In this document: positions 28,159 to 45,730 of the stretch, one piece after another
Layout of the letters: each line of letters starts with the position of its first letter
How positions within the stretch are numbered: position 1 is the stretch's first letter
Assembly: GCF_015687155.1 (NCBI RefSeq)
Contig: NZ_JADPQF010000008.1
Coordinates: forward strand, 1 to 64,000
DNA: 64,000 nt
Source: Aliikangiella sp. G2MR2-5
GTDB taxonomy: Bacteria; Pseudomonadota; Gammaproteobacteria; Enterobacterales; Kangiellaceae
Direction of reading: 5' to 3'
The notes under the pieces: generated by a model
Told to the model about the DNA's origin: nothing
Database searches by the model: none
The model's input: only the letters and a program-made list of their open reading frames with translations
Made by a program: the position numbers and the translations under genes

Positions 28159-31100
28159 GTGAAAAAAAATAAAGTATTTGTCATTTTTTTGGGGTTTCTA
28201 AGCTTTGTTTCCAATGCTCGGGAGACTGAACTATTTAATTCAGAACTTTTTTCTCCAATATTTTTCACCGCCAATGCCAATCGAAATTTACCTAATAAAC
28301 AGATTCTAAAGTTAGCTCAAGACGAGAGAGGTTTTATTTGGGTTGGTACCCGAGGTGGCGTATTCCGCTTTGACGGCTACGGCTACCAAAAATTAATCCC
28401 GTCAAATCCGTCGGCTGATTTATCGAGTATCTATGTTCGCTCAATGATAGCAGAAGGTGACTTTTTGTGGATCGGTACCATGTCTAGCGGTGCATTTCGG
28501 GTAGATTTAAGGACACTACACACTTCGCATTACATACATGATCCTGAAAATGCTGATTCTCTGGGTGGAAACCAGGTCAATGGTATCGAAAAGGGACCGG
28601 ATGGCCATATCTGGTTTGCACACAGTTTCGGGCTCGATCGGCTGGACCTGTCGAGCAACGAATTCAGACACTTTCAATCTCAGGATAAGCCCGATGATCG
28701 TTATCACAATTATTTGTTGGATCTGACTTTTGACGCAGATGAAAAGCTTTGGTTATCAACAGCAAAAGGACTGGCTTTTTTCGATTCGATATCGGAAAAA
28801 TTTTTGCTATTTAATCAAAAAAACTTTCCTCAGCTGAGCAATAATAAACTTGATGGAGTCGTCATCAGACGATTATTCCTGGCTAGTGATGAACGCCTCT
28901 GGCTGGCGACACAAAAGCAGGGAACCTATATTGTTGAACCGAAAAAAAGCGAGGTTATGAAGTTGGATGACTCAGCTAATCGAAAGGGGGTTGTCAATAC
29001 CTCACTTGTTGAGGTTGCGGCTAAAAGCGGGGGGAAGCGACAAATTTGGATTTCCGGAATGACAGGTATTGAAATACGTGATGCTGACAGTGGTAAATTA
29101 TTAAAGGAGCTGCGCGGTAATTTGCTGAATGAGTTTGGCTTGCGCGGAGATACTGTGTATCCGATTATGCGTTCGACCTCCGGAATGGTCTGGTTAGGGG
29201 TGAATGATTTTGGTTTGCAATATTTTAATCCCGATACCTCGAGCTTTTTATATCTGGATCGGTTTTCCGAGTCGTTGCAGGCGCTTTTTTCAACCTTTAT
29301 TCATAAGGTCATTCCAGTTAATGAATTTGAACTATTGATACTTACCGAAAAAGATGCCTATCGTCTGAACTTGTTGAGCGGAGCGCTAACCCAGTTTTTT
29401 CCTGAAGCGCAATCATTGCCGAAAAATCTGGCTGGCGGGATCATCGACAAAGATAGAGCTTACTGGTTAGGTGGTGGTAATGGTGATTTATATCGGGTCA
29501 GCAGTGATTTAAAAACAGTAATAAAATATGAGTTACCATTAACCAAGAATGAAGGGGTATTTGTTCGTAATATCGTTGAAGGTCAACAAGGTGAATTATG
29601 GGTCGGTTCCGATCGAGGGCTGGTTAGACTCAACCTAGACAATATGACATTTGATAAACTGAAAAATGAAGATGGCTCTCCATTTATAAGTTTTGTGCGT
29701 AATTTATTTGTCGACTCTAACAATCGACTCTGGATTGGTACAACTAGCGGACTGGGTGTCGTTGAACCTGGCGATGACCGAGTGGTTTTCTATTCCAAAG
29801 AACAGCGAACAGAGAAAACTTTAAGTCATAATACCATTTATCAGGTAATTGAAAACCAGCAAGGAACCATTCTGGTTTTTACTCGTTCTGGTATTGAGCA
29901 GCTAATTACCGATACCAAAGACAAAAAGATTTTCAAATCTTTTGCTCGAGAGGCTACAAAGCAATTGAATGTAGAAGACCGCCTGCTACAAATTGATGAC
30001 AGGCGGTACTGGCTAGGTCATCAGTTTATTCTTGATCAAGAAGGACAAATAATCAGTCAATTTGGTGAAGCTGACGGCGTAATTAAAAATGGTCGAGGAA
30101 ACGATATTTTTAAACTAAACTCCAGATACATAATGAGAGTGACTCCGGGATGGATTATGCTCATGGACCTTACCACAGAATCCACTTGGGACTATCAGCC
30201 TCAAACTGCAGTAACCGAGTTAATGATAAGCAACCAGACAAGAGAGTTCGACTTTTCCAGGCCCGAAATTCGGTTAACTGCTTCGGATGACCGCTTTTCT
30301 GTCCGCTTTGCGTCACTGGATTTTTCGGATCCGGACTCTAATCAATATCGCTATAAACTTGAAGGTTACGATAAAGAGTGGATCTCGACGCCATTTGATA
30401 TTCGGCAGGCAAAATATACGAGCTTGCCTCCCGGAAGATATGAACTGTTGCTGCAGGGAAGTAATCGAAACGGTATCTGGCCTGTAACATCAGCGAGAAT
30501 AGAGGTAACAGTTGAACCTAAGTATTATCAAACGCTATGGTTTATGCTGCTGGTTCTACTTAGTGTTTCATTTCTTTTTTATGGACTGTTGCGTTGGCGA
30601 CTGGCGGTGGTAAAGGCTAAGCAAATGGAACGCTTTGAAAAAAAGGAAGCGATTCAGCGTGCAGAAATGATGACTGAGCTAATGGATCAGAAAAATAAAA
30701 TGTTGGCTGAAGTGACACATGACTTAAGAACTCCTCTGGCCACGGTTAAGGTTCAACTGGAAGCATTACAGGATGGGGTGTTAAAAGCCGATGAAAAAAC
30801 TTATGAAACATTGCAAAACAGGATTGCCAATCTGAGTCAGTTAGTGAGCGATCTGTATCAATTGTCATTAACTGAAAGTAGTGCTCTTGTGCTCAACAAA
30901 GTTCGTCTCTCTATTAATCATTTATTAGAAGATATGGTTACCTCCTTCAGACCTATGTTTCAGCAAAAGTTTATCGAATTGGAGTTTTTGGAAAAAACAA
31001 AATCCGAACTCTATATTCTTGCTGACCAGGGGCGCCTGTCTCAAGTAATCGGTAATTTGTTGAAAAATAGCTATCGTTACACTGATTCAGGTGGGCGCGT

Positions 31101-31377
31101 GAATGTACTCCTTGCTTCAAGCAAACAATATATTAAAGTTATTATCGAAGACAGTGAGCCGGGTATTTCAGAAGATGAGCTGAATAAAATATTTGATCGA
31201 TTATATCGTGCTGACTCGGCTAGGGGACTAGAGTCCTCTGGTTCCGGGTTGGGACTTTGGATTTGTCAGTCGATTATTCAGGCGCATGATGGTGAGATAA
31301 AGGCGAAATTATCGCCCATGGGAGGATTATCGATTACTATAGAGCTTCCACGAATAACTGAAAAACAAAACCAATAA
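28159..31377 (+). CDS. Periplasmic two-propeller sensor histidine kinase
   Basis: A 1072-aa kinase starting with GTG. After a signal peptide (about residues 1-20) come many Reg_prop beta-propeller repeats of the form 'D xx G xx W(I/V)GT xx GG' (DERGFIWVGTRGGVFRFDGY at about 54-73, DSNNRLWIGTTSGLGVVEPG at about 516). A Y_Y_Y domain follows (YRYKLEGYDKEWISTPF, about 732-748), then one membrane helix (about 794-813), HisKA (EVTHDLRTPLATVKVQLEAL, about 851-870) and HATPase_c (GSGLGLWICQSII near the end). It has no receiver domain. The next gene, 19 bp on, is its response regulator. Confidence 0.9.
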   Translation: MKKNKVFVIFLGFLSFVSNARETELFNSELFSPIFFTANANRNLPNKQILKLAQDERGFIWVGTRGGVFRFDGYGYQKLIPSNPSADLSSIYVRSMIAEGDFLWIGTMSSGAFRVDLRTLHTSHYIHDPENADSLGGNQVNGIEKGPDGHIWFAHSFGLDRLDLSSNEFRHFQSQDKPDDRYHNYLLDLTFDADEKLWLSTAKGLAFFDSISEKFLLFNQKNFPQLSNNKLDGVVIRRLFLASDERLWLATQKQGTYIVEPKKSEVMKLDDSANRKGVVNTSLVEVAAKSGGKRQIWISGMTGIEIRDADSGKLLKELRGNLLNEFGLRGDTVYPIMRSTSGMVWLGVNDFGLQYFNPDTSSFLYLDRFSESLQALFSTFIHKVIPVNEFELLILTEKDAYRLNLLSGALTQFFPEAQSLPKNLAGGIIDKDRAYWLGGGNGDLYRVSSDLKTVIKYELPLTKNEGVFVRNIVEGQQGELWVGSDRGLVRLNLDNMTFDKLKNEDGSPFISFVRNLFVDSNNRLWIGTTSGLGVVEPGDDRVVFYSKEQRTEKTLSHNTIYQVIENQQGTILVFTRSGIEQLITDTKDKKIFKSFAREATKQLNVEDRLLQIDDRRYWLGHQFILDQEGQIISQFGEADGVIKNGRGNDIFKLNSRYIMRVTPGWIMLMDLTTESTWDYQPQTAVTELMISNQTREFDFSRPEIRLTASDDRFSVRFASLDFSDPDSNQYRYKLEGYDKEWISTPFDIRQAKYTSLPPGRYELLLQGSNRNGIWPVTSARIEVTVEPKYYQTLWFMLLVLLSVSFLFYGLLRWRLAVVKAKQMERFEKKEAIQRAEMMTELMDQKNKMLAEVTHDLRTPLATVKVQLEALQDGVLKADEKTYETLQNRIANLSQLVSDLYQLSLTESSALVLNKVRLSINHLLEDMVTSFRPMFQQKFIELEFLEKTKSELYILADQGRLSQVIGNLLKNSYRYTDSGGRVNVLLASSKQYIKVIIEDSEPGISEDELNKIFDRLYRADSARGLESSGSGLGLWICQSIIQAHDGEIKAKLSPMGGLSITIELPRITEKQNQ

Positions 31378-31396
31378 TCGAGAAAGGCAATACCGA

Positions 31397-32071
31397 ATGG
31401 CACACAGGATATTCATTGTAGAAGACGAAAAAGAAATTGCTTCGGTGGTTGAAATGTACCTTAACGCAGATGGCTTTGAGACGCAGGTCTTTCATGAGGG
31501 AACGAATGTCACTGAGGCTATAAAACATAGCAGGCCGAGCGTGGTATTGCTTGATTTAATGCTTCCTCAAAAAGATGGGGTAACCATTTGTAAAGAAGTT
31601 CGAGAGTTTTCCGATGTGCCCATTATTATGACCACTGCCAAAGTTGAGGAAGTTGATCGCTTGCTAGGGCTTGAGATCGGAGCCGATGATTATGTGTGCA
31701 AACCATACAGCGTAAAGGAGCTTGTGGCACGAGTAAAAGCGGTTACTCGTCGCTTGGATAACAAAGTCAGTCAATCGTCCCCAGAAATGGTTGTTAATGC
31801 CGACAATCACACGATTCAATTTCGGGGGCAGACTATCAGTCTGACAACCGTTGAGTTTAATCTGTTTCATTTACTTTATACGAATCCCAATCGGATCTAT
31901 TCTCGACAACAGATCCTCGATCAGGTGTATTCTGACTATCGAGTCATCTCTGATCGCACCGTTGATAGTCATATTCGAAATTTGCGTAAAAAACTGGCCG
32001 AACTGGAAACCCCGGAAGAACCCGTTCGGTCGATTTATGGCGCGGGCTATAAATATGAGCCGTGGTACTGA
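31397..32071 (+). CDS. BaeR-like OmpR-family response regulator
   Basis: A 224-aa regulator. The receiver domain has acidic EDE (residues 9-11), phospho-Asp in VVLLDLMLPQ (about 53) and Lys in DDYVCKPYS (about 103). A winged-helix output domain follows (about 130-222, ending YGAGYKYEPWY). The stretch FSDVPIIMTTAKVEEVDRLL followed by GLEIGADDYVCKPYS closely resembles E. coli BaeR as I remember it. It is co-transcribed with the propeller kinase, and a second kinase gene follows. A repeated site CTGCATATTTN in three nearby promoters is its probable target. Confidence 0.92.
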   Translation: MAHRIFIVEDEKEIASVVEMYLNADGFETQVFHEGTNVTEAIKHSRPSVVLLDLMLPQKDGVTICKEVREFSDVPIIMTTAKVEEVDRLLGLEIGADDYVCKPYSVKELVARVKAVTRRLDNKVSQSSPEMVVNADNHTIQFRGQTISLTTVEFNLFHLLYTNPNRIYSRQQILDQVYSDYRVISDRTVDSHIRNLRKKLAELETPEEPVRSIYGAGYKYEPWY

Positions 32072-32134
32072 ATAAACTGAATAATGAATAAGAATCTTAT
32101 GACAAGGGAGTGTTCGAGGAATGAAAAATAATTT

Positions 32135-32156
32135 CTGCATATTGTCTGCACATTGC
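32135..32156 (+). promoter_or_regulatory. Direct-repeat site 1 (before the second kinase)
   Basis: CTGCATATTGT directly followed by CTGCACATTGC: two 11-bp units in phase, 39 bp upstream of the kinase ATG. The arrangement (same-face direct repeat over the -35 region) is typical of OmpR-family activators. The surrounding TTTCTGCATATTG resembles the E. coli BaeR box (TCTCCATnATTGG, from memory). Confidence 0.65.
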
Positions 32157-32195
32157 TATGGTCTACTTTAGGGCCAGTGTAATTTGAGACCGTCT

Positions 32196-33497
32196 ATGTT
32201 TACCAAGCAAGCGTTTTTACGTTTTATTACCGCCAATATCGAATATAAAGATGATATCGCATTATTGCGTAAGCTAGTGATCATCAATGCCCTGATTTTA
32301 GCAATTATTCTGCTTTTTTCGATTTTTTCTCTGTATAACCTGGCTCGAGATGAATGGTTGGTTGCATCGCTTGATCTGGCAGGACTGCTGGTGTGTGGCT
32401 ACGCCTACTTTCAATTATACGCTAACAAACGGCTCGATTTTGCTGTATTTACTGTAAGCGTAACGCTCATCGCCTTTTTATTGGCGTTGGCTTATGTGGG
32501 ACAAAACCGCGAATACAGTCTGATCTGGACCTTCTTTTTGCCCCTCTTTGTGTTTATGCTGAACGGGCGAAAAACCGGCAGTTGGATGATGCTCGTTTTT
32601 TATGGAATCTTGATTCCGATGGCCTTCATTTATATTGGTGAATGGCAAAATGGTGACTGGACCTTTACCAGTTTTTTACGTTTCTCAATAGCATCGATGG
32701 TAATGGTCTATACCTGTTATTACAGTGAGTTGGCGATGGAAAAGTCATATAAAAGTTATAAAGAAGCTCAGCAGGAAGAAAAACGCTTGTTGGACGAGCG
32801 TAATGCGATGATGCTGGAAACATTGGAAAAACAAGATAAACTGTTAACCGACGTGTCGCACGAATTTCGCACGCCGTTATCCGTCATGCGCATGCAGTTG
32901 GAAGCCTTACAGGACGGCGTAGTGAAAGAGCCGAAAGAGGCGTATCAAAAGTTACAGTCTAAAATATCCGAACTGGATTGTTTGATTCATGACCTGGTAC
33001 AGGCTTCCAATCTAGGCAGGGAACATCACGGCAGGAATCGTCAAACACTCGATTTAAAATCGTTGCTCGATGAAGTTATTCAGATGTACCAATCCAGGTT
33101 TGCTGACGCCAATTTGCAATTGACTTACTCAGCAATTGATGAGGATTGTTTTGTTCACGTCGATCGCGACAATATGAAAGTTGTTTTCGATAAGTTGCTG
33201 GACAACTGTCTGCGTTACACTGATGCGCCGGGACAAGTGGTGGTGTCTGTAAAGAAAACTGAAGAGGGTGTAACCATTGGTATTGAGGATTCGGCGCCGG
33301 GTGTTCGCAAACACGATCATGTTAAGTTGTTTGATCGGTTATTTCGTGTCGAGAATTCTCGCAATCGCGAAACTGGCGGTGCTGGACTCGGACTTTCGGT
33401 GGCTAAGGCAATCGTCGAGGCGCATAAGGGTTTAATTGCCATAAATTCTTCAGACCTCGGTGGCTTGTCTGTGACCGTAACACTTGCTAGCGCTTAA
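32196..33497 (+). CDS. Membrane sensor histidine kinase (BaeS-like DHp)
   Basis: A 433-aa kinase from ATG 32196; a TTG four codons earlier is possible. Five or six hydrophobic segments (about residues 25-180) form a membrane sensor without a large periplasmic domain. A coiled linker leads to HisKA (DVSHEFRTPLSVMRMQLEAL, about 224-243) and HATPase_c (GAGLGLSVAKAIVEAHKG). Its HisKA helix shares LEALQDGV with the propeller kinase encoded upstream, so both probably dock on the same BaeR-like regulator. Its promoter carries the predicted regulator site. Confidence 0.9.
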   Translation: MFTKQAFLRFITANIEYKDDIALLRKLVIINALILAIILLFSIFSLYNLARDEWLVASLDLAGLLVCGYAYFQLYANKRLDFAVFTVSVTLIAFLLALAYVGQNREYSLIWTFFLPLFVFMLNGRKTGSWMMLVFYGILIPMAFIYIGEWQNGDWTFTSFLRFSIASMVMVYTCYYSELAMEKSYKSYKEAQQEEKRLLDERNAMMLETLEKQDKLLTDVSHEFRTPLSVMRMQLEALQDGVVKEPKEAYQKLQSKISELDCLIHDLVQASNLGREHHGRNRQTLDLKSLLDEVIQMYQSRFADANLQLTYSAIDEDCFVHVDRDNMKVVFDKLLDNCLRYTDAPGQVVVSVKKTEEGVTIGIEDSAPGVRKHDHVKLFDRLFRVENSRNRETGGAGLGLSVAKAIVEAHKGLIAINSSDLGGLSVTVTLASA

Positions 33498-33520
33498 AAG
33501 ATCGGATAATACAGTAACGT

Positions 33521-33550
33521 AGCCAGCAGCCAGCAGCCAGCAGCCAGCAG
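33521..33550. repeat. 7-bp microsatellite AGCCAGC x4
   Basis: Four perfect AGCCAGC units (33521-33548) plus a partial one, bordered by GTAGCC and GGCTAC. It lies 24 bp after the kinase stop. Confidence 0.75.
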
Positions 33551-33648
33551 GCTACATCAAGGCTACTAAACTTCCTATCGCTAGATGCTCGGCTAAGACA
33601 GTTCGAGCGGTTAATACAGCTCGGTAAAATCTTAACAAAATTAATCCT

Positions 33649-33670
33649 CTGCATATTTCCTGCATATTTA
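33649..33670 (+). promoter_or_regulatory. Direct-repeat site 2 (before the beta-trefoil-like gene)
   Basis: CTGCATATTTC followed immediately by CTGCATATTTA, the best match of the three sites. A possible -10 box (GATAAC/TAACCT) begins 4-6 bp after it. The downstream gene starts at 33724. Confidence 0.7.
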
Positions 33671-33723
33671 CCCGATAACCTAAGCACAGTAGAAAAAATT
33701 CATTACCCAATAAGGAGAGTACT

Positions 33724-35961
33724 ATGAGTTTCTATCGTTATGTGCATAAGGGAGCCTTAGTAATGGTGGCTCTTTCAATAAACTTGTCAAATGCTTGGGC
33801 TGGCTCTGGTGGCGGTACGGTTAATTCAACGCCCACAGAATTTTCATTAGTGAGTTTATACTCTCCAAATAGTAAATCCTTTTTCTCGTTTAAAGATTTA
33901 GGACGCACTTCAGAGGGAGATGACTATTTTGGTTTGTGGACTAAAAAGCATACCTATCATAATAGTACTTATTACCCTTATCATTCTGACGAATCGATAA
34001 TTTTTGAGTTGGTTGATGATAATGATAATAATAATTGCATATCAAATAATGACACTGTTGCTATTTCCGATCCGACTACAGGCGCTTATTTGGGCGGATA
34101 TAATCACGGTTATTTCAATTCAAATCAACATGTTATTCAGCACAAGCTATTTAAAAACCCTGAAAAAGTACCTACCTATAAAATATTTAATTTATCGGGT
34201 GGTTGCTTAAACCGAAATGGTATGCAAACTTTCCAGCTTGCTTCGACGGTAGACTTGATTAAAAAGTATTTTTGGAATAATACCGAGTACGCAAAAAAGG
34301 CTATTGGCGAAGTTCTTAGTGATAAATTTGGCAATAAAAGCTTTCAGATTAAATCAATGGGGGCTGTGACTAATCAGTTAGCCATAGAGCATTTACATTC
34401 AGCTGCTCATAATACACCGGTTGCTTTAGTGAGCTATCAAAGTACCTTTATTAGTGGCGATGGTAAAGCCTATTTACCCACTATTAATGGCGCCAGTGAA
34501 AAGTGGGAAATTTTGGCCGTCAATCAGTTTCAAGCGCTACGCCATTATTGCATCCCTGATGGCACCAAAGTCAGATTAAAAAATTCGGGGAATAAAAAGT
34601 TTTTAGTGCAAACCGGTTGGACTTTCGGTATGAATGAAACTGGAACCGAATTTGAAATGAAAAACCGAAGCTATGAAGGTGCTTGTATCGATGAAAAAGA
34701 TGCTTTTTCGTTAATGCTACCTAATGGTGATTTCGTTCAAACCAATCCTGGTCATCACAATATGGATCACCATCAGCCCTTTATTCATAAAACCATGACC
34801 TTTGCCTATGTAAAAAATCCTGATCTAGATTTAAGAGTTAATAAAGCGAATCTAACTTTTGAAATTGATATTAACGGTGGCGGTTATGGATTGCCTAAAC
34901 ATGAAGACAACACTATGTCGGTTGACGGTAACGGTAATAGGGCATTTCCTTTTAGCAAAGATGCATTAGCTTCTCATCCTGCTGGTGTCGCTGTTCAGTA
35001 CAGTTTTCATAGTGACAGCAACAGTTTTTGTGATAACTCTTCATTTTTCTTAAAGCGTTCAGGCTCACAAAACGAGCATAAGTTTTTTGGTGCGACAACA
35101 GAAGGAGCATTATCTGCAGCAAAAATAAGAACCGATCGACCACATGTTTTAGCCTGGGAAAGCTTTCGTTTTGTCTTTGAAGGTGACGATAATGATGCCT
35201 GTTATACACCAAATCAACTAGAGAATACCTGGGTTAATAGTACAGGTTCGCTTGTGGGGACTCCTTATTACAAAAATTTAACTCGCGGTGGTAATCTGAT
35301 GCGCATGTGGGATCCTGAGGGAGGTTCACTTGGCTTTTTTGATACCTATTTTTATCCTTTTGGCGCCGATTCATTTATTCAGGTGACTGAACCGCCTGTC
35401 GATTTAGGTAATTTTGATGGCAGTATATTAGGTGATTTGGTAAATACTGATCCGTTAGTAGGACTACGCTATTACTTTGGGCCTCCTGAAGTTGGGCAGA
35501 ATTATGCAACAGAATTATCGGTAACGGGTTTACAAGCACACGATGCTCGTTATCTCGGCAATGTGAATGCTGGTGGCGAAAGGGCTATAGCACAAAGTGA
35601 AATGCTTCATAATTGGGAATTTATGACTTTCGAGCCGGTCAATCGCACCTTGTCTCAATGTATACGAGGGGGAGATAAGGTTTATATTCGTACCTATAAC
35701 GGCCATAGGTTACAGGCGCACCAATTTGACAATGTGGTAGACTCAGATACATACAATCGTTTAACTTGGGAAACCTTTACCATAAAAAAATTAAATGGTA
35801 ATGCTAACAGTTGTATCAGACACGGTGATACGCTGCAGTTAGATACTTATCATGGAACCCATTTACGTGCGGTTGATGGTTATGTGATCCATGACAGTGA
35901 GTACAACGAAAATAACGATCATCAATTCAAATTATTGTTAAATAACTTTGCTCCTCAATAA
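33724..35961 (+). CDS. Large secreted protein with beta-trefoil/fascin-like repeats
   Basis: A 745-aa protein with a signal peptide ending NLSNAWA (about residue 26). The mature protein contains at least four related Cys-led modules: CISNNDTVAISDPTTGAYLG (about residue 99), CIPDGTKVRLKNSGNKKFL (about 277), CIRGGDKVYIRTYNGHRLQA (about 645) and CIRHGDTLQLDTYHGTHLRA (about 698). The 'G-D-x-V-x-L ... G-x-x-L-x-A ... W-x-x-F' pattern is that of fascin- or ricin-type beta-trefoils, which often bind sugars. No enzyme motif was seen. It has its own predicted BaeR-like site and ends at a strong terminator. Confidence 0.7.
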   Translation: MSFYRYVHKGALVMVALSINLSNAWAGSGGGTVNSTPTEFSLVSLYSPNSKSFFSFKDLGRTSEGDDYFGLWTKKHTYHNSTYYPYHSDESIIFELVDDNDNNNCISNNDTVAISDPTTGAYLGGYNHGYFNSNQHVIQHKLFKNPEKVPTYKIFNLSGGCLNRNGMQTFQLASTVDLIKKYFWNNTEYAKKAIGEVLSDKFGNKSFQIKSMGAVTNQLAIEHLHSAAHNTPVALVSYQSTFISGDGKAYLPTINGASEKWEILAVNQFQALRHYCIPDGTKVRLKNSGNKKFLVQTGWTFGMNETGTEFEMKNRSYEGACIDEKDAFSLMLPNGDFVQTNPGHHNMDHHQPFIHKTMTFAYVKNPDLDLRVNKANLTFEIDINGGGYGLPKHEDNTMSVDGNGNRAFPFSKDALASHPAGVAVQYSFHSDSNSFCDNSSFFLKRSGSQNEHKFFGATTEGALSAAKIRTDRPHVLAWESFRFVFEGDDNDACYTPNQLENTWVNSTGSLVGTPYYKNLTRGGNLMRMWDPEGGSLGFFDTYFYPFGADSFIQVTEPPVDLGNFDGSILGDLVNTDPLVGLRYYFGPPEVGQNYATELSVTGLQAHDARYLGNVNAGGERAIAQSEMLHNWEFMTFEPVNRTLSQCIRGGDKVYIRTYNGHRLQAHQFDNVVDSDTYNRLTWETFTIKKLNGNANSCIRHGDTLQLDTYHGTHLRAVDGYVIHDSEYNENNDHQFKLLLNNFAPQ

Positions 35962-35984
35962 CATTGTTATTTAATAAAGGTTTA

Positions 35985-36014
35985 GAGAGGTGATTATCAC
36001 CTCTCTTTTGTTTT
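35985..36014 (+). terminator. Rho-independent terminator after the beta-trefoil-like gene
   Basis: The arms GAGAGGTGAT (35985-35994) and ATCACCTCTC (35996-36005) form a stable hairpin followed by TTTTGTTTT, 24 bp past the stop. Confidence 0.85.
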
Positions 36015-36026
36015 AGTGACAGAAAA

Positions 36027-37535
36027 ATGCTGCATTTCAAAAAACTTTCTTTAGCTCTGCTTTCTTCTTTTGCGCTGATATTAGCTTATGTTTATGAACC
36101 CTTAGGCTGGTTAGGGTTTGTTGCCCTTGTACCGATTATTTATGCCACTGAAAAAGCAAAAACTAAAGTGGATATTTTATGCTGGATAATTTGCATTTTT
36201 GTATACGCAGCTGTGGTGTATTTTCGTATGCCACAAATGTTATTGGAAAAGGCAACAAGTTCGGCTTGGATAGCTTATCCGAGTACGTTCTTATTTATCC
36301 TCTGGCAAACGCTACCATTTATGGTGTTCGCTCTATGTCGCTTTAAAATTAAAATAATGGGTGAAGGCGCAAATGTTTTTCTTCTCGCTGCCACATTAAC
36401 GCTGCTTAGCTTTTTTCATTGGTCTCCTCTACCGCTTATTATCAGCAGTCAGCTTGAAATCCCGGTTTTATTTTTACAAGTGTTAGATATTGGTGGTTTG
36501 CCTTTGGCTGATTTTCTCATTTATGTGGTTAACTTTTCGTTCGCGAAATTATTGTTCGCATTGAAAGATGATAAAAAACAACAACTGAGAAAACACATAG
36601 TCACCATTTCGGCTGTTTTATCAACCTTGATTATTTATGGTCTATTTTCTATTTATCGGTTTGGTACGAATGAGGAACAAAATTCACAAAACAGCATTTC
36701 TGTCGGTTTAGTGCATACAAGTTTTGCCTATAATGTTTCAAAAAAGGCAGAGCTGAACAAACTTTTAGAGTTAACCCGTTCATTAAAGTCGGCGCAACAA
36801 AATATCAACTTAATTGTTTGGCCGGAGCTACCTAATCCACCTCGTCAACGAGCAGACATCAATTTAAAAAGGGTGATTTCACAACTTAATAAAGAATTTA
36901 ATTCCCCAGTGCTCACGCATAATCTGGCATTTTCCGATAAGCATAGTGGGTTTAACAATCAACCTTATCGATATAATCTGGTTTCTTTATTTGATGCTGA
37001 AAAAATAGTTGCTGAACATAAAAAGCAATTGCTGTTGCCTTTGGTTGAGTACCTGCCTATGGAAAATTTATTACGCGATGTTTTTCCCAAGCCTGCTTCC
37101 TATATTCCTGGAGAAGGCAGCTCGGTTTTGACTCTTGCGAATGGCGTCATGATTGCGCCACTAATATGTTACGAGTCAGATTTTCCTGATTACTCCATGC
37201 AAGCGGTTAATCTGGGCGCTAATTTATTAATCAATGTTGTTAACGATACCTGGTCACAAAACCATTTAAATGCACGTAAGCATTTTCGTTTAGCGCAAAT
37301 GCGTGCCATTGAGTTACGAAAATCAATCATTCGTGTGACTAACAATGGTTACAGTGGAGTGGTTTACTCTTCTGGAAAAGGCCAACGAATATATGCTCCC
37401 GGAGAATATTCTTCACAGCTAAAATCGGTACCATTGAGTGAGCATCGAAGCTTATATTTTTATTTGGGAGACTGGGTGTTTTGGGGATGTCTATTAATTA
37501 TCGTTTGGCAATTTTTGCGTTATAGATATTTTTGA
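36027..37535 (+). CDS. Apolipoprotein N-acyltransferase-like protein (Lnt paralogue)
   Basis: A 502-aa protein with Lnt architecture: six or so N-terminal membrane helices (to about residue 215), a periplasmic nitrilase-fold domain, and a last membrane helix (VFWGCLLIIVWQFL). The nitrilase triad is visible as Glu in IVWPELPNPP (about 264), Lys in AEHKKQLLLPLVEYLP (about 333) and Cys in PLICYESDFP (about 388). Lnt adds the third acyl chain to lipoproteins. The normal housekeeping lnt sits with ybeX/corC and leuS, so a copy here, right after a secreted protein gene, is likely an accessory one. It starts 13 bp beyond a terminator, with a weak ribosome site. Confidence 0.85.
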   Translation: MLHFKKLSLALLSSFALILAYVYEPLGWLGFVALVPIIYATEKAKTKVDILCWIICIFVYAAVVYFRMPQMLLEKATSSAWIAYPSTFLFILWQTLPFMVFALCRFKIKIMGEGANVFLLAATLTLLSFFHWSPLPLIISSQLEIPVLFLQVLDIGGLPLADFLIYVVNFSFAKLLFALKDDKKQQLRKHIVTISAVLSTLIIYGLFSIYRFGTNEEQNSQNSISVGLVHTSFAYNVSKKAELNKLLELTRSLKSAQQNINLIVWPELPNPPRQRADINLKRVISQLNKEFNSPVLTHNLAFSDKHSGFNNQPYRYNLVSLFDAEKIVAEHKKQLLLPLVEYLPMENLLRDVFPKPASYIPGEGSSVLTLANGVMIAPLICYESDFPDYSMQAVNLGANLLINVVNDTWSQNHLNARKHFRLAQMRAIELRKSIIRVTNNGYSGVVYSSGKGQRIYAPGEYSSQLKSVPLSEHRSLYFYLGDWVFWGCLLIIVWQFLRYRYF

Positions 37536-37600
37536 ATGATTCATTATTTTGGATAGACTCTCGTACCTTTTACAATATAAGCAATTCTAAAAATCTGACT

Positions 37601-37622
37601 CTGCATTTTTCCTGCATATTTG
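37601..37622 (+). promoter_or_regulatory. Direct-repeat site 3 (before the calcium-repeat surface protein)
   Basis: CTGCATTTTTC followed by CTGCATATTTG, two 11-bp units 51 bp before the ATG at 37673, with a -10-like TAAAGT six bases on. Confidence 0.65.
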
Positions 37623-37672
37623 CTCTGTAAAGTACACGCTAATCATTATCTTTGGACGCGCGTGGAGTAATA

Positions 37673-40600
37673 ATGCAACAAATTAATGGCATTTCAATTA
37701 ACCGAATCCAGTGTTTAGTTCGCCTTAAACAGGTGTTGTTGATCATTGGTTTACTGATGACCAACCTCGTGTCGGCCTCAATTGAATCGGGCAGTGTGAG
37801 CCCCAAATTGAGTACAACGCCTGTCGACGTGGGATTAACCAACAGCGAACAGCGCAGTGTGTTTGTGCAAGTCGTGAACCCAATAAAATCCGGCGAAGCT
37901 CAGGAAGTTGGCAATGGCCAATGGCGATTCAACACCAGTGACGGTAGCAACACTTCTGATCTATCCGCTTACTACATTGCCATCGATGGCGCTCCAGCAT
38001 TATTGGGTGTACCCAGCGAAGCCGGTACCTTAGTGGTTGGCGAAAACAATGAAATTGAAGACCTCTGGACCGATCGTATTTTCAGTCGTCCCGTCGTCTT
38101 CGTTTCATTTGAAGATCCAAGTAGCACTTCTGGCGCGATTATCGTACCGACTGCGCCGATCACTTCTGGAAATCAATTCTTATTTGACATTCGTTTCGCC
38201 GAAGGTGTTTCAGCCAATTTTGCGGGCGCTAAAGTCCATTATTTTATTGCGGAAGAGGGTTGGCACCGTTTAGTGGATGGCCGCATGCTGTTGGTGTCTA
38301 GCACAGAACTTAAAGATACTGGTTTTAGTGGTAAAACCATCGAGCTAGGTGCGACTTTTAACGACGCGGTGACCGTGGCGCAATTGCAACGACCCATGCT
38401 ATTCCATAACGGTACTTTATTTAGAAACTTATTGGATATGGAAACCTATCAAGGTGCTACTGTCACCGCAGGTATTGGTGATATTTCCAGTGTTAGCTTG
38501 CGCTTGATGCAAGAAAGAAATGCCGAAGAGAGTTATGGAAGTAGGGTGTTTGCAGGCCGCGTGGGTTTTATGGTGTTGGGTAATCTCACCAGTATTGCTA
38601 ACACGATAAAAACGCATCTGGATACCAGTACCAATATCCGTGGTGGCAGCTATTTAACGGTACCCAAATCACATTTTCAAAATTACCCGCACAGTGCGGC
38701 GACCTCGCCCTTGTTAAACAAAGCTGCCTGTGCCGAGGATGACGATGTACAAAACTATTGTATTTACTTATCGATGCCCGTCGATGTGTTTAGTCGTGGC
38801 CTGTTTGACACCCCACGTTTGCCTTATGTCGATAGTGACTTTGAACCGCTTGAAATGGAACGTACGCTGTATTCAGAAGCCTACGACAATTGGGAAGCCG
38901 TGGTTAAAGCTGAAATGGCAGCGCCGGTTACCGACGCCGACAATCAACCGATAACTGGTACCTTAGCGCAGATGTTTCCCAACTTTGTTGCTGATCGAGG
39001 CTGGGACCATGTACTCATAGGTAGTAATAATTACTGGCACTGGTTTGCTACCTACCATTACAACACCTGTGTTTTTGATAGCGTAAATACTGCCTGTGTC
39101 GATTACGCGCCGGGTGATACCATTATTGAAGACAGAACTTTTGAGTGGATCCCGACGACGTCTTTATATGATTACGAAGAGCGTAATACAATTGGCTTGC
39201 ACGCACCAGCGGATACCGCTCAGGGTTTTTTTATTGTCAACGATAGCGGTTTAAATGATAAAGGCTCATACAGCGAAAGACTCACTCCGCCAAGTTGGGC
39301 TGCTAACCAAACCCTTGATTATTTAAATTTTGATGTGCCAACTGACGCTAAACTTTTAAAGGTGCATCAACAAAGTCAGGATCGCAAAGTGACGATTGAG
39401 CGCCTCGCGGAACCCTGGCAATTTGCTTATGCCAGAATCGATGCGTCTTTGACAGAAGTATGGTGCGACAGTTGTGAGACCATTCCTACCTACAATTATG
39501 GAGCCTTCCAGGCAACGGGTAATTTGACGTATCAGTTTGCGGTTTATCCTGAAGATTATCATTACCTTATGGATTCGCTGCCTCATATGTCCTATACCGG
39601 TGAGTCGCATGTTAAGCCTCAGGTTGCCAAAGTGGGGCAAAATATCCGTGTTGGCGACTATCTTTTTGCCAATATCGCCTACTCCATTGAAGCGACGAAT
39701 TTTGTCTGGCTGCGCTCTGCTACTGGAAAAGTTGATGACGCTGTGGTTGTTGCGACCAATCAATTGGGTTATCAGGCAACGGTAGATGATGGCAATTCCT
39801 ACGTCACCATGTGCATGACGTTTAACAATAGTCAACGTTGTGGCAACTGGATCAAAGTAGGGCAAATACCGTTCGCAACCAATGTAAAGGTTAAGCCGCA
39901 ATACGCCGAGCCATTAGCGGGGGCTGGTTTAATCGGCCAATACACTTATATTGCACCAAACAATAATGCTTACGATGGGTTGGAGTATCAAAGTCTTTAC
40001 CAGTGGCAATATGCGCAGTCTGACACTTGGGTGGACTATGCGGGTGAGAATGAAATCACCTTTCAGAAAGATGTAGCTGCCGGTACGGTGATTCGTTTTT
40101 GTGTGACGCCCAGCAGCCATCTACAGTCTGGCCCAACCGAGTGCTCTGTTGGCGTGAAGATGCAACTGGATACCGATGGTGATGGCATATCCGATGATTG
40201 GGACATCGATGATGACAATGATGGCTATGCCGATTGGGAAGATAGATTCCCTATCGATGCCAGTGAATATTTGGATACAGACAGAGACGGAATTGGCAAT
40301 AACGCCGATTTAGATGATGATAATGACGGCATCAGTGATGAAGATGAGCTTGCCGGTTTAACCGACCCACTAAAATACGATACTGATGGTGATGGTACCA
40401 GTGACTCAGAAGATCCATTCCCAACCAGCTATGGCAACTTTCCGGATTTTGATAACGATGGTTTAGACGATACGGTTGATGATGATATCGATGGCGATGG
40501 TGTTGTTGATTTTATCGAGTTAACCTTTAATGGTGAAACCTTTCTACGTCGGCTTGATGATGATCCCTACAGCCCTTGCGTATCCAATCATATTACGGTT

Positions 40601-42919
40601 ACCAGCAATGCTGACAATGGCCCAGGCTCATTACGGCAGGCACTGATTGATTTATGTCCAAGTGAGGTTTATTCGGAGTTAAGCGTCATTGATTTTAGTG
40701 ATGCGATGACCATTACATTGCAAAGCCCACTGCTAATTAAAAAAGGCGTTGAAATTAACGCTAATCATAGCGTTGTGCTTGATGCGCAAGGACAAAGTGG
40801 CATTTTTTATGTAGCGATGACGGCTGGGCTTGCGGGTACACAATTTCCACATCTGATCGGGCTTACGTTGCGCAATGGGGCATCCTATCAAGCCGATGAC
40901 TTAGTCGCTTCAACTGATAGCGGAAACGGCAGTGCTATCCATATGCAATCGAACTCAACTGTTATTCTTGACTCGGTATTAATCGAAAACATGACAGCGC
41001 CTGCTATTAATGGCGATGACTTCGATCTGTATATGGAAAACAGCCTTATCGCTAATGTAAGTGGCAGGGCATCAGCTGTGCGCACCACTGATGGGCAAAT
41101 TTCTTTGTTCTCCAGCACCCTTTACAACAGTGAAGGCGGAACCATTGCTATTTGGGGTGACGGTAAAGCCCAGTTACGTAATAGCCTGCTGTTAAAAGGC
41201 CCAAATGGCTCAACCGTGTGTAATGTTTCAAATTGGGAACAACAAACCGCCAGTTGGGTAGAAGACAGTGAATGTGGCATTAGCTCAACGGGGACCGTCG
41301 AGTTAGCCGATCCGGATAACGGTGACTACCGCCCAATACCCGGCAGCGCAAATATCGACACGGGTGAGACCGGTGAACTTCCATCAGACGCAGTAGACTT
41401 GCTCGGTAATGCCCGTTTAATGGGCGAATACAATCCGGATAATCCAGAAGAACTGGGCGGACCGATTTATCCTAAGCTCGATATCGGTGCGATTGAATAT
41501 GATTTTTACGGTGATTTTGATGGCGATGGTACCGATGATTTGAACGATGCTTTCCCGTTAGATGTCTCTGAATCAGCTGACACGGATAATGACGGCGTGG
41601 GCGATAACAGTGATGCATTTCCCGACGACGCTGACGAAACCATGGATAGCGATGGCGATGGCATAGGTGATAACGCTGATCTCGATGATGATAACGATGG
41701 TTACAGCGATAGAGTTGAAATTGACGAAGGGAGCGATCCGCTTGATGCAACATCGACACCATTAGATACGGATCAGGATGGCGAGCCCGACAGTACTGAT
41801 ACTGACGACGATAATGATAGCGTTCCTGACAGTGAAGATGCCTTTCCGTTAGACGCTACAGAGTCGGTGGACACTGATGGAGATGGGATTGGTAACAACG
41901 CTGATACTGACGACGATAATGATAGCGTTCCTGACAGCGAAGACGTCTTCCCGTTAGACGCTACAGAGTCGGTGGACACTGATGGCGATGGGATTGGTAA
42001 CAACGCTGATACTGATGACGACGGTGACAATGTTGCCGACAGTGAAGACGCCTTTCCGTTAGACGCTACAGAGTCGGTGGATACTGATGGTGATGGGATT
42101 GGTAACAACGCTGATACTGATGACGACGGTGACAATGTTGCCGACAGCGAAGATGCATTCCCATTGGACGAAACTGAGTCTGAAGATACAGACGGTGACG
42201 GTATCGGTAACAATACCGATACTGATGATGACAATGATGGTTATTCTGATGCGATAGAAGTCGCGGTCGGCTCTGATCCGCTCGATTCAAACAGTCGACC
42301 ACTTGATACCGATTTGGATGGAATTCCTGATTCAATAGATACTGATGATGACAATGACGGTGTTGTCGATAGTGACGATACCTTCCCTTTGGACAGTTCT
42401 GAATCAGTAGACACCGATGGTGATAGTATTGGCAATAACGCCGACTTGGACGACGATGGCGATAATGTTGCTGACAGCGAAGATGCCTTCCCGTTGGACA
42501 GTTCTGAATCAGTGGACACCGATGGTGATGGGATCGGTAATAACGCCGACTTGGACGACGATGGTGATGGTGTGGCCGATAGTGATGATGCCTTCCCGTT
42601 GGACAAATCTGAATCAGTAGATACCGATGGTGATGGTATTGGTAATAACGCCGACTTGGACGACGATGGCGATAGTGTTGCTGACAGCGAAGATGCTTTC
42701 CCGTTGGACAGTACCGAGTGGCTCGATACTGACTTGGATGGCGTTGGTGACAATGCGGACAGCGATGATGATAACGACGGTATTTTAGATGTGAACGATG
42801 CCGAGCCTCTTTCTGTTCAACAAACCAGTGGTGGCGGTTCAATGTTCTGGATGTTGTTATTCTTGACTCTTCTGACGATGCGAAAAAGAACTAGTACTTT
42901 GAAAAAGAGCAGGGCGTAG
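37673..42919 (+). CDS. Giant surface protein with thrombospondin type 3 repeats and GlyGly-CTERM
   Basis: 1748 aa from ATG 37673 (GGAG upstream); a TTG seven codons earlier lacks support. A signal peptide ends around TNLVSA. A roughly 800-residue ectodomain of unknown fold follows, then a first set of Asp-rich calcium repeats (DTDGDGISDDWDIDDDNDGY). A CSLREA/beta-helix-like segment comes next (ADNGPGSLRQALIDLCPS, about residue 985), then a long second set of repeats (DTDGDGIGNNADTDDD). The end GGGSMFWMLLFLTLLTMRKR is a GlyGly-CTERM sorting signal, cleaved by rhombosortase and used with type II secretion. A role in adhesion or as an envelope layer is inferred. Confidence 0.88.
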   Translation: MQQINGISINRIQCLVRLKQVLLIIGLLMTNLVSASIESGSVSPKLSTTPVDVGLTNSEQRSVFVQVVNPIKSGEAQEVGNGQWRFNTSDGSNTSDLSAYYIAIDGAPALLGVPSEAGTLVVGENNEIEDLWTDRIFSRPVVFVSFEDPSSTSGAIIVPTAPITSGNQFLFDIRFAEGVSANFAGAKVHYFIAEEGWHRLVDGRMLLVSSTELKDTGFSGKTIELGATFNDAVTVAQLQRPMLFHNGTLFRNLLDMETYQGATVTAGIGDISSVSLRLMQERNAEESYGSRVFAGRVGFMVLGNLTSIANTIKTHLDTSTNIRGGSYLTVPKSHFQNYPHSAATSPLLNKAACAEDDDVQNYCIYLSMPVDVFSRGLFDTPRLPYVDSDFEPLEMERTLYSEAYDNWEAVVKAEMAAPVTDADNQPITGTLAQMFPNFVADRGWDHVLIGSNNYWHWFATYHYNTCVFDSVNTACVDYAPGDTIIEDRTFEWIPTTSLYDYEERNTIGLHAPADTAQGFFIVNDSGLNDKGSYSERLTPPSWAANQTLDYLNFDVPTDAKLLKVHQQSQDRKVTIERLAEPWQFAYARIDASLTEVWCDSCETIPTYNYGAFQATGNLTYQFAVYPEDYHYLMDSLPHMSYTGESHVKPQVAKVGQNIRVGDYLFANIAYSIEATNFVWLRSATGKVDDAVVVATNQLGYQATVDDGNSYVTMCMTFNNSQRCGNWIKVGQIPFATNVKVKPQYAEPLAGAGLIGQYTYIAPNNNAYDGLEYQSLYQWQYAQSDTWVDYAGENEITFQKDVAAGTVIRFCVTPSSHLQSGPTECSVGVKMQLDTDGDGISDDWDIDDDNDGYADWEDRFPIDASEYLDTDRDGIGNNADLDDDNDGISDEDELAGLTDPLKYDTDGDGTSDSEDPFPTSYGNFPDFDNDGLDDTVDDDIDGDGVVDFIELTFNGETFLRRLDDDPYSPCVSNHITVTSNADNGPGSLRQALIDLCPSEVYSELSVIDFSDAMTITLQSPLLIKKGVEINANHSVVLDAQGQSGIFYVAMTAGLAGTQFPHLIGLTLRNGASYQADDLVASTDSGNGSAIHMQSNSTVILDSVLIENMTAPAINGDDFDLYMENSLIANVSGRASAVRTTDGQISLFSSTLYNSEGGTIAIWGDGKAQLRNSLLLKGPNGSTVCNVSNWEQQTASWVEDSECGISSTGTVELADPDNGDYRPIPGSANIDTGETGELPSDAVDLLGNARLMGEYNPDNPEELGGPIYPKLDIGAIEYDFYGDFDGDGTDDLNDAFPLDVSESADTDNDGVGDNSDAFPDDADETMDSDGDGIGDNADLDDDNDGYSDRVEIDEGSDPLDATSTPLDTDQDGEPDSTDTDDDNDSVPDSEDAFPLDATESVDTDGDGIGNNADTDDDNDSVPDSEDVFPLDATESVDTDGDGIGNNADTDDDGDNVADSEDAFPLDATESVDTDGDGIGNNADTDDDGDNVADSEDAFPLDETESEDTDGDGIGNNTDTDDDNDGYSDAIEVAVGSDPLDSNSRPLDTDLDGIPDSIDTDDDNDGVVDSDDTFPLDSSESVDTDGDSIGNNADLDDDGDNVADSEDAFPLDSSESVDTDGDGIGNNADLDDDGDGVADSDDAFPLDKSESVDTDGDGIGNNADLDDDGDSVADSEDAFPLDSTEWLDTDLDGVGDNADSDDDNDGILDVNDAEPLSVQQTSGGGSMFWMLLFLTLLTMRKRTSTLKKSRA
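41804..42763 (+). repeat. Two blocks of four 105-bp tandem repeats inside the surface-protein gene
   Basis: Units start at 41804, 41909, 42014 and 42119 (block 1, to 42223) and at 42344, 42449, 42554 and 42659 (block 2, to 42763). Each encodes a 35-aa calcium-binding unit of two thrombospondin type 3 motifs (DSEDAFPLDATESVDTDGDG and neighbours). Nucleotide identity within block 1 is very high, so recent expansion is likely. Confidence 0.9.
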
Positions 42920-43168: not shown

Positions 43169-45730
43169 ATGGTTCGAAAAGTGATGGTAAAAGTTTCACT
43201 GCTTCTCTTTATGAGTCTTTTTTTTCTGACCGGCTGTGGTGGCGGTGGTATCGATACTGATACTGACCAGGAAGAAGAAGTAGTCGATACTCCGGCAGAT
43301 GAATTGGCATTGGAATTTAGCGTAACCGCGCATAACAGCAATGTGCTGATGGTCAATGCCAATGTGGTTACCGAAGAATTGACCGATGTGTCTATTCGAT
43401 TTGAGTCGGCCGAAGGTGGAGTACATGAGACCTCAACCTCATCCGCTTTAAATAACCACAGCATCACCGTGGTGGGATTGAGGCCGCAAACAGCTTACCA
43501 GTTTACCGCGGTGCTCACTCGTGAATCTGGAGAAATTACAACCAGTGAACCGCTGGCTTACACTACGCCTGCACTTCCGTTTGCTGTGCCGGATATGGAG
43601 CTGGTTACGACAAGCGATAGCAGTTATCAGGGGATTACCTTTTTTGCCATTTCAGACTCCGAGTCTCACTTTATCGGTGTCGACGAATCGGGAGTACCTG
43701 TCTGGTATTTTTACAATAGCGATGCGTCAATGCTGGGAGGCGCCTCTGCCATCAAATATCTGGGGGACAGTCGTCTGATGCTAATGTTGAGTCGCGAAGT
43801 CTGGGTTATTGATATGGCGGGTAATATTCTTTCTACTTACCCGTTACCAAACTACCATCACGAAGCCACCATCCTTGAAAATGGCAATATCATGGTGCTG
43901 ACCAACGAATACGAAGAGTTTGACGGCAAAATGCTAAAAGGCGACCGTATTCAGGAATATAGTTCTGCAGGTGCTTTAGTGTGGGAATGGTCCAGCTTTG
44001 AACACCTTGATACCAGTCGTTTTCCTGGCGTCTTGTCGACCCGTATTCTGGACGACGGCTCTTATGACTGGAGCCATTCCAACGCCATTTTCCAGCAAGA
44101 CGATGGATCGATTTTACTGTCAGCTCGCAACCAGAGCTGGGTTATCAATATTGACCATGCCAGCGGAGATATTAACTGGATTTTGGGAAGCGCCGAAGGC
44201 AACACGAATGAGTCGCTACAGAATAAATTTTTAAGCCTGACTGAAGGAAGCTGGATGTCGGCTCAACATGCGCCGATGCAAACTGTTAATGGCGACTATC
44301 TGATTTACGATAATCGTAATGAGTCGGAGCTGCCGGGAAGCACCAACAATAGTCGTGCGGTTAAATATCGGGTCAATACTGACAGCATGAGCGCGACCCA
44401 AAGCTGGGAATATGTCATCAACAAATATACCCAGGCTATGGGGGATGTTGATGAATTGCCGAATGGCAATATTCTGATCACAGCCGGCGGCCCCGGTAGT
44501 AACGACAACGCGCATTTAATTGAAGTGACTGCAAACGTTCCTTCGCAAACGCTATGGGAATTACATATTAACAACGAGACGCTTTATCGTTCAGAGCGGG
44601 TTGGTTGGAGTGATTTTTTAGCAATAAAAAGTACGGCTGAGACCGCGCTAAAACTATCCGGCAAAATAACCGGCCTGCATTTGGACGGGCTTTCGATTAG
44701 TGATGGAGTTGAAACCTTGTCACTGCCTGCAGGTACAACGACATTTGAGTTTTCTGGAAATTTGTCGGATGGCGAGCAATACGCTATTCAGCTAATCAGC
44801 GAACCCGACAATCATAGCTGCATTATAGAAAATGCATCCGGCACGATCAGTCATAATACTGCTAATGTTATGGTCAGTTGTAATGACCATATTGTAAATG
44901 CCGACCTGACTCACCTGCCGATAGGAGACACGCTGATTTTGCAGCGCATACAGGGCGATATGGAACCTGAAGTGGGTAAGCTCTGGCTGTGTCGTCTGCC
45001 TGAGGATGGGGCTGGTGCCGCGCCTTCAGATGACTGGACAAATGCAGATGGTTCCTGGAACTATATTATCAAACCCCAGGTTGAAGGCGAGAATTACTAT
45101 AACAGTGAACTCAGTGTGACACTCGATGGGCAGGGGAACCGAATTATCACCGGCAACGCGCTGCCAACGACACCCACCGGAACTTTCCCGGTTGAGCAGG
45201 GCACCGTTGCATTTGAATATGATAAAAACCCTAATTTCATTTCTGCGCATCAGGTTCAGATAACTTTTGATGCCATACCTAGTGTAAGCCCTGAGCCAAG
45301 TTGTGTTGGATTTGGCGCGACAGGCATTTCATTAACCGGCTCCCCGATTTATCAGGGCTCATCGACTGTTGGAACCGATGCTTCGGCTTTTGAAATGCTG
45401 GATAGCAGTGGCGGTCATACCGATGGTACAGAAACCTACCATCACCATTTTCTGGGGCAAAATGTGCTGGATTTGCTGGACCCTGACGATGGCGGTCACT
45501 CTCACCTGATGGGCTATATTCAGGATGGTTTTGGTATTTTTGGTCCGAGAGGTGAAGATGGAAAAGCTCTGTCATCGGCGGAACTGGATGAATGTCATGG
45601 GCATACTCACGATATTGAATGGGATGGTGAAATTCGGAATATGTACCACTATCACTGGACTTATGACTTTCCTTACAACGTGGGTTGTATTAAGGGAACG
45701 CCGCAGGATTTGGGGATTAATAATAGCTGA
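43169..45730 (+). CDS. Lipoprotein with arylsulfotransferase and YHYH domains
   Basis: An 853-aa protein with lipobox LFFLTGCGGGG (Cys about residue 23). Residues about 135-500 form an arylsulfotransferase (ASST)-type propeller: GVDESGVPVWYF, HHEATILENGNIMVLTNEY, DWSHSNAIFQQDDGSILLSA and QHAPMQTVNGDYLIYDN, with candidate catalytic histidines in HHE, SHSN and QHAP. The C-terminal 150 residues are a YHYH domain (GTETYHHHFLGQN, ECHGHTHDIEWDGEI, MYHYHWTYDFPYNVGC). ASST moves sulfate between phenols; the YHYH domain is of unknown function. The fusion suggests a surface enzyme. Confidence 0.85.
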   Translation: MVRKVMVKVSLLLFMSLFFLTGCGGGGIDTDTDQEEEVVDTPADELALEFSVTAHNSNVLMVNANVVTEELTDVSIRFESAEGGVHETSTSSALNNHSITVVGLRPQTAYQFTAVLTRESGEITTSEPLAYTTPALPFAVPDMELVTTSDSSYQGITFFAISDSESHFIGVDESGVPVWYFYNSDASMLGGASAIKYLGDSRLMLMLSREVWVIDMAGNILSTYPLPNYHHEATILENGNIMVLTNEYEEFDGKMLKGDRIQEYSSAGALVWEWSSFEHLDTSRFPGVLSTRILDDGSYDWSHSNAIFQQDDGSILLSARNQSWVINIDHASGDINWILGSAEGNTNESLQNKFLSLTEGSWMSAQHAPMQTVNGDYLIYDNRNESELPGSTNNSRAVKYRVNTDSMSATQSWEYVINKYTQAMGDVDELPNGNILITAGGPGSNDNAHLIEVTANVPSQTLWELHINNETLYRSERVGWSDFLAIKSTAETALKLSGKITGLHLDGLSISDGVETLSLPAGTTTFEFSGNLSDGEQYAIQLISEPDNHSCIIENASGTISHNTANVMVSCNDHIVNADLTHLPIGDTLILQRIQGDMEPEVGKLWLCRLPEDGAGAAPSDDWTNADGSWNYIIKPQVEGENYYNSELSVTLDGQGNRIITGNALPTTPTGTFPVEQGTVAFEYDKNPNFISAHQVQITFDAIPSVSPEPSCVGFGATGISLTGSPIYQGSSTVGTDASAFEMLDSSGGHTDGTETYHHHFLGQNVLDLLDPDDGGHSHLMGYIQDGFGIFGPRGEDGKALSSAELDECHGHTHDIEWDGEIRNMYHYHWTYDFPYNVGCIKGTPQDLGINNS

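Follow-up and report, generated by a model that had tools for sequence, protein, structure and literature searches.

BaeSR of Escherichia coli and Salmonella, whose targets are efflux pumps and chaperones, is the described two-component system that comes nearest to the one analysed here. For the spy promoter, Yamamoto et al. (2008) reportedly described a directly repeated BaeR box. The published BaeR consensus reads TTTTTCTCCATDATTGGC or TCTNCANAA, with CTNCA as its core (PMC3799227). In E. coli, the mdtA promoter holds two units at 11 bp (TTTCATAATT-c-CTCCATTTTT) in the same phase as the boxes reported below (TTTCATAATTcCTCCATTTTT), and spy has two CTCCAT elements 22 bp apart, again in that phase. 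Four Photorhabdus loci carry an 11-bp pair ~9 kb upstream of baeR, probably in the mdtA promoter; a general literature search on BaeR direct repeats yielded nothing useful. The pho box offers a second precedent, with two 11-bp head-to-tail units replacing the -35 element. Work on surface protein sorting has defined the GlyGly-CTERM/rhombosortase and PEP-CTERM/exosortase systems (PMC3237569, PMC1569441), whose tails are found on many of the box-driven genes discussed here. Finally, dissection of the DHp domain of histidine kinases assigned a threonine to phosphatase activity only and an acidic residue to kinase activity only; the histidine is not required for the phosphatase activity of EnvZ, and for both EnvZ and NtrB the isolated DHp domain shows phosphatase activity in vivo (PMC3510030).

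We analysed a 64,000-nucleotide stretch (the window) of the genome of Aliikangiella sp. G2MR2-5, which comprises 5.02 Mb in 36 contigs and shares its family, probably the Kangiellaceae, with Pleionea and the MAG HF-Dia21. The genes, boxes and -10-like elements described here between 28159 and 42919 all lie on the forward strand. The sensor kinase HK1 (28159..31377) combines, according to Pfam, a periplasmic Reg_prop propeller with Y_Y_Y, HisKA and HATPase_c domains, and counterparts of 1053-1074 aa occupy the same place in G038/L101, L102, L104, L106, L113, L188 and L189. It is followed by an OmpR/PhoB-family response regulator of 224 aa (31397..32071; Pfam Response_reg and Trans_reg_C), and no box was found upstream of the HK1-regulator pair. 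The first-pass annotation had called this regulator BaeR-like, which holds insofar as BaeR is the nearest of 96 NCBIfam families and BaeR (4b09) the best match among solved structures; its score of 282 bits, however, falls short of the 380 bits demanded for the PRK10710 equivalog, and it is not BaeR itself. Efflux genes, as in the BaeS/mdtABCD operon context, were absent among its neighbours in the window, which are the propeller kinase, a second kinase and surface proteins. The regulator likewise falls far below the cut-off for the response regulator of the proteobacterial dedicated sortase system (TIGR03787; 135.6 versus 335.7 bits), and the present case concerns transcriptional control of the sorting substrates. 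Its recognition helix (DRTVDSHIRNLRKKL, 31952..31996) contains the motif SHIRN, with Arg194 encoded at 31976-31978. The second kinase, HK2 (32196..33497; MASE6-HisKA-HATPase by Pfam, start taken from alignment with the HF-Dia21 homolog), retains all kinase residues.

Three tandem repeats had been noted in the first reading of this locus, and all three are present: box 1 (32135..32155; CTGCATATTG-t-CTGCACATTG) before HK2, box 2 (33649..33669; CTGCATATTT-c-CTGCATATTT) and box 3 (37601..37621; CTGCATTTTT-c-CTGCATATTT). Box 2 matches the pattern CTGCATATTTNCTGCATATTT exactly, box 3 with one mismatch and box 1 with three. Dinucleotide-preserving shuffles of the window gave a mean of 0.02 matches, as compared to the three observed. 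Over the 5.02 Mb genome, CTGCATATTTNCTGCATATTT with up to three mismatches returned four forward matches and no reverse match, and the core CTGCANNTTNNCTGCANNTT exactly four copies versus ~0.04 expected from base composition. The reversed-pattern control for this core scan was not dinucleotide-matched and was not relied on at two mismatches. Random scattering over the genome, named in the first reading as an outcome that would speak against the regulon, was not seen: all four core sites sit upstream of genes. Three are neighbours of the regulator, and the remaining one precedes a target's paralogue. This fourth site (C23:471404) is unlinked to the window; 66 bp separate it from the ATG of the gene behind it, which encodes a secreted TSP3/GlyGly-CTERM protein. 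The recovery, by a promoter-motif scan, of an unlinked gene that resembles the linked target in kind is the strongest single piece of evidence for the motif defining a regulon. A short CCAGCAG/CAGCAGC repeat run was also seen between HK2 and box 2 (33521-33550).

The resemblance to the E. coli BaeR box suggested earlier is fair, though loose. Of the nine positions in the published consensus TCTNCANAA, the unit tCTGCATAT agrees with eight, and it has the CTNCA core in common, but it carries a G where the E. coli sites have a C. As the fit is confined to this core and the 9-bp consensus, we do not equate the box with the 18-bp BaeR consensus. We also rejected identity with the pho box: the layout is the same, whereas the unit (CTGTCAT), the regulator and the signal are different.

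Each window box is placed just upstream of a -10-like element, as initially proposed, and the gap to the hexamer is exactly 6 bp in every case (TCTACT at 32162..32167, TAACCT at 33676..33681 and TAAAGT at 37628..37633 after boxes 1, 2 and 3, respectively). The fourth site keeps this 6-bp gap as well. A similar box-to-gene distance, claimed alongside, holds only loosely (40, 54 and 51 bp, and 66 bp for the fourth site); the first and third values rest on corrected starts, the probable initiation codons being ATG 32196 for HK2 and ATG 37673 for the giant protein. Among 13 boxes from five genomes of the family, picked by the repeat alone, a TNNNNT element stands 6 bp after the second 10-mer, its first T being present in 12 and its last T in all 13. 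In a set of 30 CTGCA boxes from approximately ten genomes, offset 6 showed the first T in 28, the last T in all 30 and both in 28, the next best offset reaching 13 of 30 (naive binomial value <1e-20, with the sites not independent). The consensus of box and -10 is CTGCATATTcnCTGCAcATTtnnntgnTatanT and includes a weak TG of an extended -10. The second unit lies 16 bp from the -10 in the window boxes, close to the 17 bp at the E. coli phoA pho box, and there is otherwise no conserved -35. This layout, in which paired units are spaced by one helical turn and keep a constant gap to the -10 downstream, is that of an OmpR/PhoB-type class II activator site.

The boxes precede HK2, a secreted protein and a giant repeat protein, just as the first-pass annotation had it, while the beta-trefoil fold it proposed for the secreted protein was not confirmed. 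This 745-aa protein (33724..35961) has a signal peptide as judged by eye and matched no Pfam family; relatives that are 41% and 32% identical lie behind the same box in HF-Dia21 (G038) and in G037. Its AlphaFold model, based on three sequences only, was unreliable (mean pLDDT 37). Between boxes 2 and 3, and without a box of its own, lies a gene for an Lnt-like apolipoprotein N-acyltransferase paralogue (36027..37535; TIGR00546, 178 bits, cut-off 133), possibly an operon partner of the preceding gene; the enzyme is possibly linked to the surface proteins. The giant surface protein behind box 3 (37673..42919) contains calcium-type repeats (Pfam TSP3_bac). The C23 protein is homologous to its C-terminal part and combines a choice-of-anchor Q domain with TSP3-type repeats. 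Both box-driven TSP3 proteins end in GlyGly-CTERM tails (TIGR03501; 19.2 bits for the giant protein and 19.6 bits for the C23 protein, cut-off 15.5), and the genome encodes a rhombosortase (C1:1464278; 120 bits, cut-off 84). The first reading had overlooked the fixed -10 distance, the target at C23, these sorting tails and what the box in front of HK2 signifies.

Scanning a regulator alignment over 84,980 species genomes yielded 80 regulator loci. In their noncoding DNA, half-sites of the form [CT]TNCAN[ACT]TT formed 30 pairs at 11 bp and at most two at any other distance between 6 and 59 bp, and eight permuted half-sites gave 0-5 pairs at 11 bp. The box recurs beside orthologous regulators in other families, and CTGCA boxes cluster beside SHIRN regulators in at least eight genomes. 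Paired CTGCA/CTGCA boxes occurred near SHIRN regulators in 11 of 15 loci, as compared to 1 of 86 for SHIKN/SHIKK (Fisher P ~1e-10, from counts that ignore shared descent). Arg194 goes with CTGCA boxes and Lys with other box spellings. The same 11-bp layout is found with CTCCA units beside regulators of G001 and with TTGCACATTT-like units upstream of kinases of the G002/G008/G037 type. An alphaproteobacterial SHIRN regulator in Antarcticimicrobium also has two CTGCA-CTGCA pairs close by (L169:8514 and 10742).

The order of the locus recurs, with boxes, in HF-Dia21, Shewanella, G124 and others. HF-Dia21 encodes a propeller kinase, the regulator (79% identical), a box, HK2, a box, a secreted protein, a lipoprotein, a box and the 745-aa relative; Shewanella salipaludis (L102) a propeller kinase, the regulator, a box, HK2, a box and a giant protein with a GlyGly-CTERM tail; and a single locus of G124 the regulator, a box, HK2, a box and a giant protein. 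A counterpart of box 1 is found in the same place in all three (L031:8564, L102 at 10815 and L198 rc 1743, respectively). Tails of sorted proteins recur behind the boxes, being GlyGly-like on a box-driven gene in G129 and of the PEP-CTERM type behind several boxes in the Colwellia MAG MOW. YHYH-domain proteins recur in or near these modules (window 43169-45730, an arylsulfotransferase-YHYH protein; L102:3121-5787, a PBP-YHYH protein behind a box in Shewanella; and L070:6495-8363, with a PKD-YHYH protein at C34).

A scan for the full architecture in 395 genomes of the order matched only seven, of which five carry a SHIRN regulator and the other two are G001 and G037, whereas a reversed control pattern gave none among the matches listed. 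In G037, two perfect boxes precede relatives of the HF-Dia21 targets, the SHIRN regulator is lacking and the module kinases are not beside the boxes. These boxes (L030:7382 and 9785) come with a -10, and the genome is rated 100% complete. G001 has a CTGCA box with only the CTCCA-linked type of regulator nearby; conversely, Pleionea (G013/L103) has the regulator and no box. These exceptions may be losses or cases of cross-use by paralogues. The source genome itself contains a second BaeR-like kinase-regulator pair at C34:68082 (G000:C34:66435-71497; L006, L070), flanked by TTGCAC-type 11-bp repeats; the proteins encoded behind these repeats are a subtilase, a PKD/YHYH protein and a small secreted one.

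In seven relatives, the place of HK2 is taken by a free-standing HisKA (DHp) protein of 90-111 aa without an ATPase domain (L022:4003-4287, L104:8634-8909, L106:10785-11057, L113:6138-6413, L105:10605-10940 and, on the minus strand, L188:9151-9459 and L189:9340-9615). A box, usually the one directly following the regulator, drives such a mini-protein of 90-102 aa in G004, Colwellia 75C3, Colwellia MOW, an Alcanivoracaceae MAG, G124 and G129. In three of them (G004, Colwellia 75C3 and the Alcanivoracaceae), no more than ~30 bp separate the stop codon of the mini-protein from the next box. The 111-aa form of Alteromonas KUL49 overlaps the end of the regulator gene and has no box directly before it. 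Four of the five mini-proteins scanned matched HisKA with 38-47 bits (cut-off 26.9) and the L105 form with 15 bits; none of these five had a HATPase_c domain. An AlphaFold model showed a two-helix hairpin, for which Foldseek placed DHp domains on top, although weakly (E at least 0.1). Used by itself as an independent probe on 395 genomes, the mini-protein profile found only G004, G124 and G129, in all of which the locus runs from a propeller or TPR kinase through a SHIRN regulator and the box to the mini-protein. Downstream of it, G129 (L188) and G124 (L189) share a sigma-factor-like gene of 179-196 aa and a 940-aa gene, the latter a Ser/Thr protein kinase with TPR in L188, which suggests a further regulatory layer.

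Among the full-length kinases of these loci, the window HK2 scored best against the mini-protein profile (66 bits versus 41-56) and was the top match for five of the seven. The mini-protein is therefore best read as a reduced counterpart of HK2. The two do not occur together in one locus; G124 has each, in separate loci. Five of the seven retain the motif HELRT, while L105 reads VSKDLRT (phospho-histidine lost) and L188 reads HQLRT (kinase acid lost); the phosphatase threonine is kept in all seven. Given the roles of these residues (PMC3510030), the natural losses spare exactly the phosphatase residue. With synonymous sites saturated, dN/dS of the mini-proteins allows no more than a general statement of purifying selection. 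Like the DHp fragments of EnvZ and NtrB, the mini-proteins consist of the HisKA domain alone with a conserved threonine. Those fragments, however, are laboratory constructs, whereas the mini-proteins are encoded by natural genes that mostly stand behind the box of the regulator itself; a literature search for DHp-only proteins retrieved nothing relevant.

Several other explanations for the boxes were weighed. As the three window sites lie within 5.5 kb, they could be duplicates, i.e. promoter sequence spread as a repeat or arisen by chance and devoid of function. Yet their flanks are unrelated while the boxes and the -10 phase are kept, the fourth site is unlinked and the boxes are conserved across families. 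We rejected this explanation, whose probability appears negligible in view of the window shuffles, the genome rarity, the 11-bp pairing in 80 loci, the permuted half-sites and the 395-genome scan. Repression from the boxes is conceivable, given that OmpR-family regulators can repress, but a position at -35 with no other conserved -35, and a -10 spacing fixed in 28 of 30 cases, typical of activators and nearly that of the phoA pho box, make it highly unlikely. It is also unlikely that the main reader of the boxes is a different OmpR-type regulator, such as the BaeR-like paralogue at C34, and that the local regulator serves another purpose. G037 keeps its boxes without a SHIRN regulator, and the boxes of the C34 paralogue (TTGCACATTT) are close in spelling; against this, that paralogue is flanked by its own, differently spelt boxes, and the CTGCA boxes cluster beside SHIRN regulators.

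The second DHp protein, too, admits another reading. Rather than damping the system, HK2 or its reduced form could phosphorylate the regulator or pair with HK1 in mixed dimers of heightened HK1 activity. The intact kinase motifs of the window HK2 would allow such amplification, and the histidine, acid and threonine persist in five of the seven mini-proteins. These proteins nevertheless lack an ATPase domain, and the phospho-histidine is lost in L105 and the acid in L188 while the threonine is invariant. We hold positive feedback to be possible but doubtful, and give phosphatase feedback on the phosphorylated regulator about an even chance. Slightly below that, and tentatively, we place the combined proposal that the natural DHp-only protein is a dedicated regulator phosphatase, that HK2 is its full-length form and that SHI[R/K]N and CT[G/C]CA form a code.

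Rarity in the genome, conservation beside orthologous regulators and linkage all favour the BaeR-like regulon first proposed from the window, and we consider it very probable that a BaeR-related two-component system controls a surface-protein regulon through these boxes. The repeats, their spacing, rarity, conservation and linkage, the sorting tails and the missing ATPase domain are properties of the DNA itself; regulator binding to the boxes, and activation rather than repression, we infer from them. The HK1 propeller would sense a periplasmic signal and phosphorylate the regulator, two molecules of which would occupy, in head-to-tail orientation, a pair of CTGCAYATT units spaced by 11 bp, or one helical turn. 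These units would replace the -35 and recruit polymerase to the -10 exactly 6 bp downstream (class II activation). The predicted regulon comprises HK2, the secreted protein and the giant TSP3/GlyGly-CTERM protein in the window, and the second, unlinked GlyGly-CTERM protein. The box-driven second DHp protein, a MASE6 kinase in the window and a DHp-only protein in seven relatives, may serve as a feedback element that strips phosphate from the regulator and switches the system off; in the window, where HK2 is an intact MASE6 kinase, the loop could have a sensory role besides damping.

BaeSR differs from this system in the core base (C versus G), in the helix residue (Lys versus Arg), in its efflux and chaperone targets as opposed to sorted surface proteins, and in lacking the second box-driven DHp protein. 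New features of the present system are the kind of target, the precise promoter rule together with the pairing of helix and box, and the DHp-only gene driven from a box. An uncharacterised two-component family is thereby linked to the control of GlyGly-CTERM and PEP-CTERM surface proteins, about whose regulation little is known so far, and the promoter rule can be searched for in any genome. Arg or Lys in SHI[R/K]N, paired with G or C in CT[G/C]CA, would separate paralogous BaeR-like systems within one cell, and this paired change offers a simple test system for the insulation of duplicated regulators. The DHp-only feedback gene, if true, would represent a natural kinase reduced to its phosphatase part and controlled by its own target.
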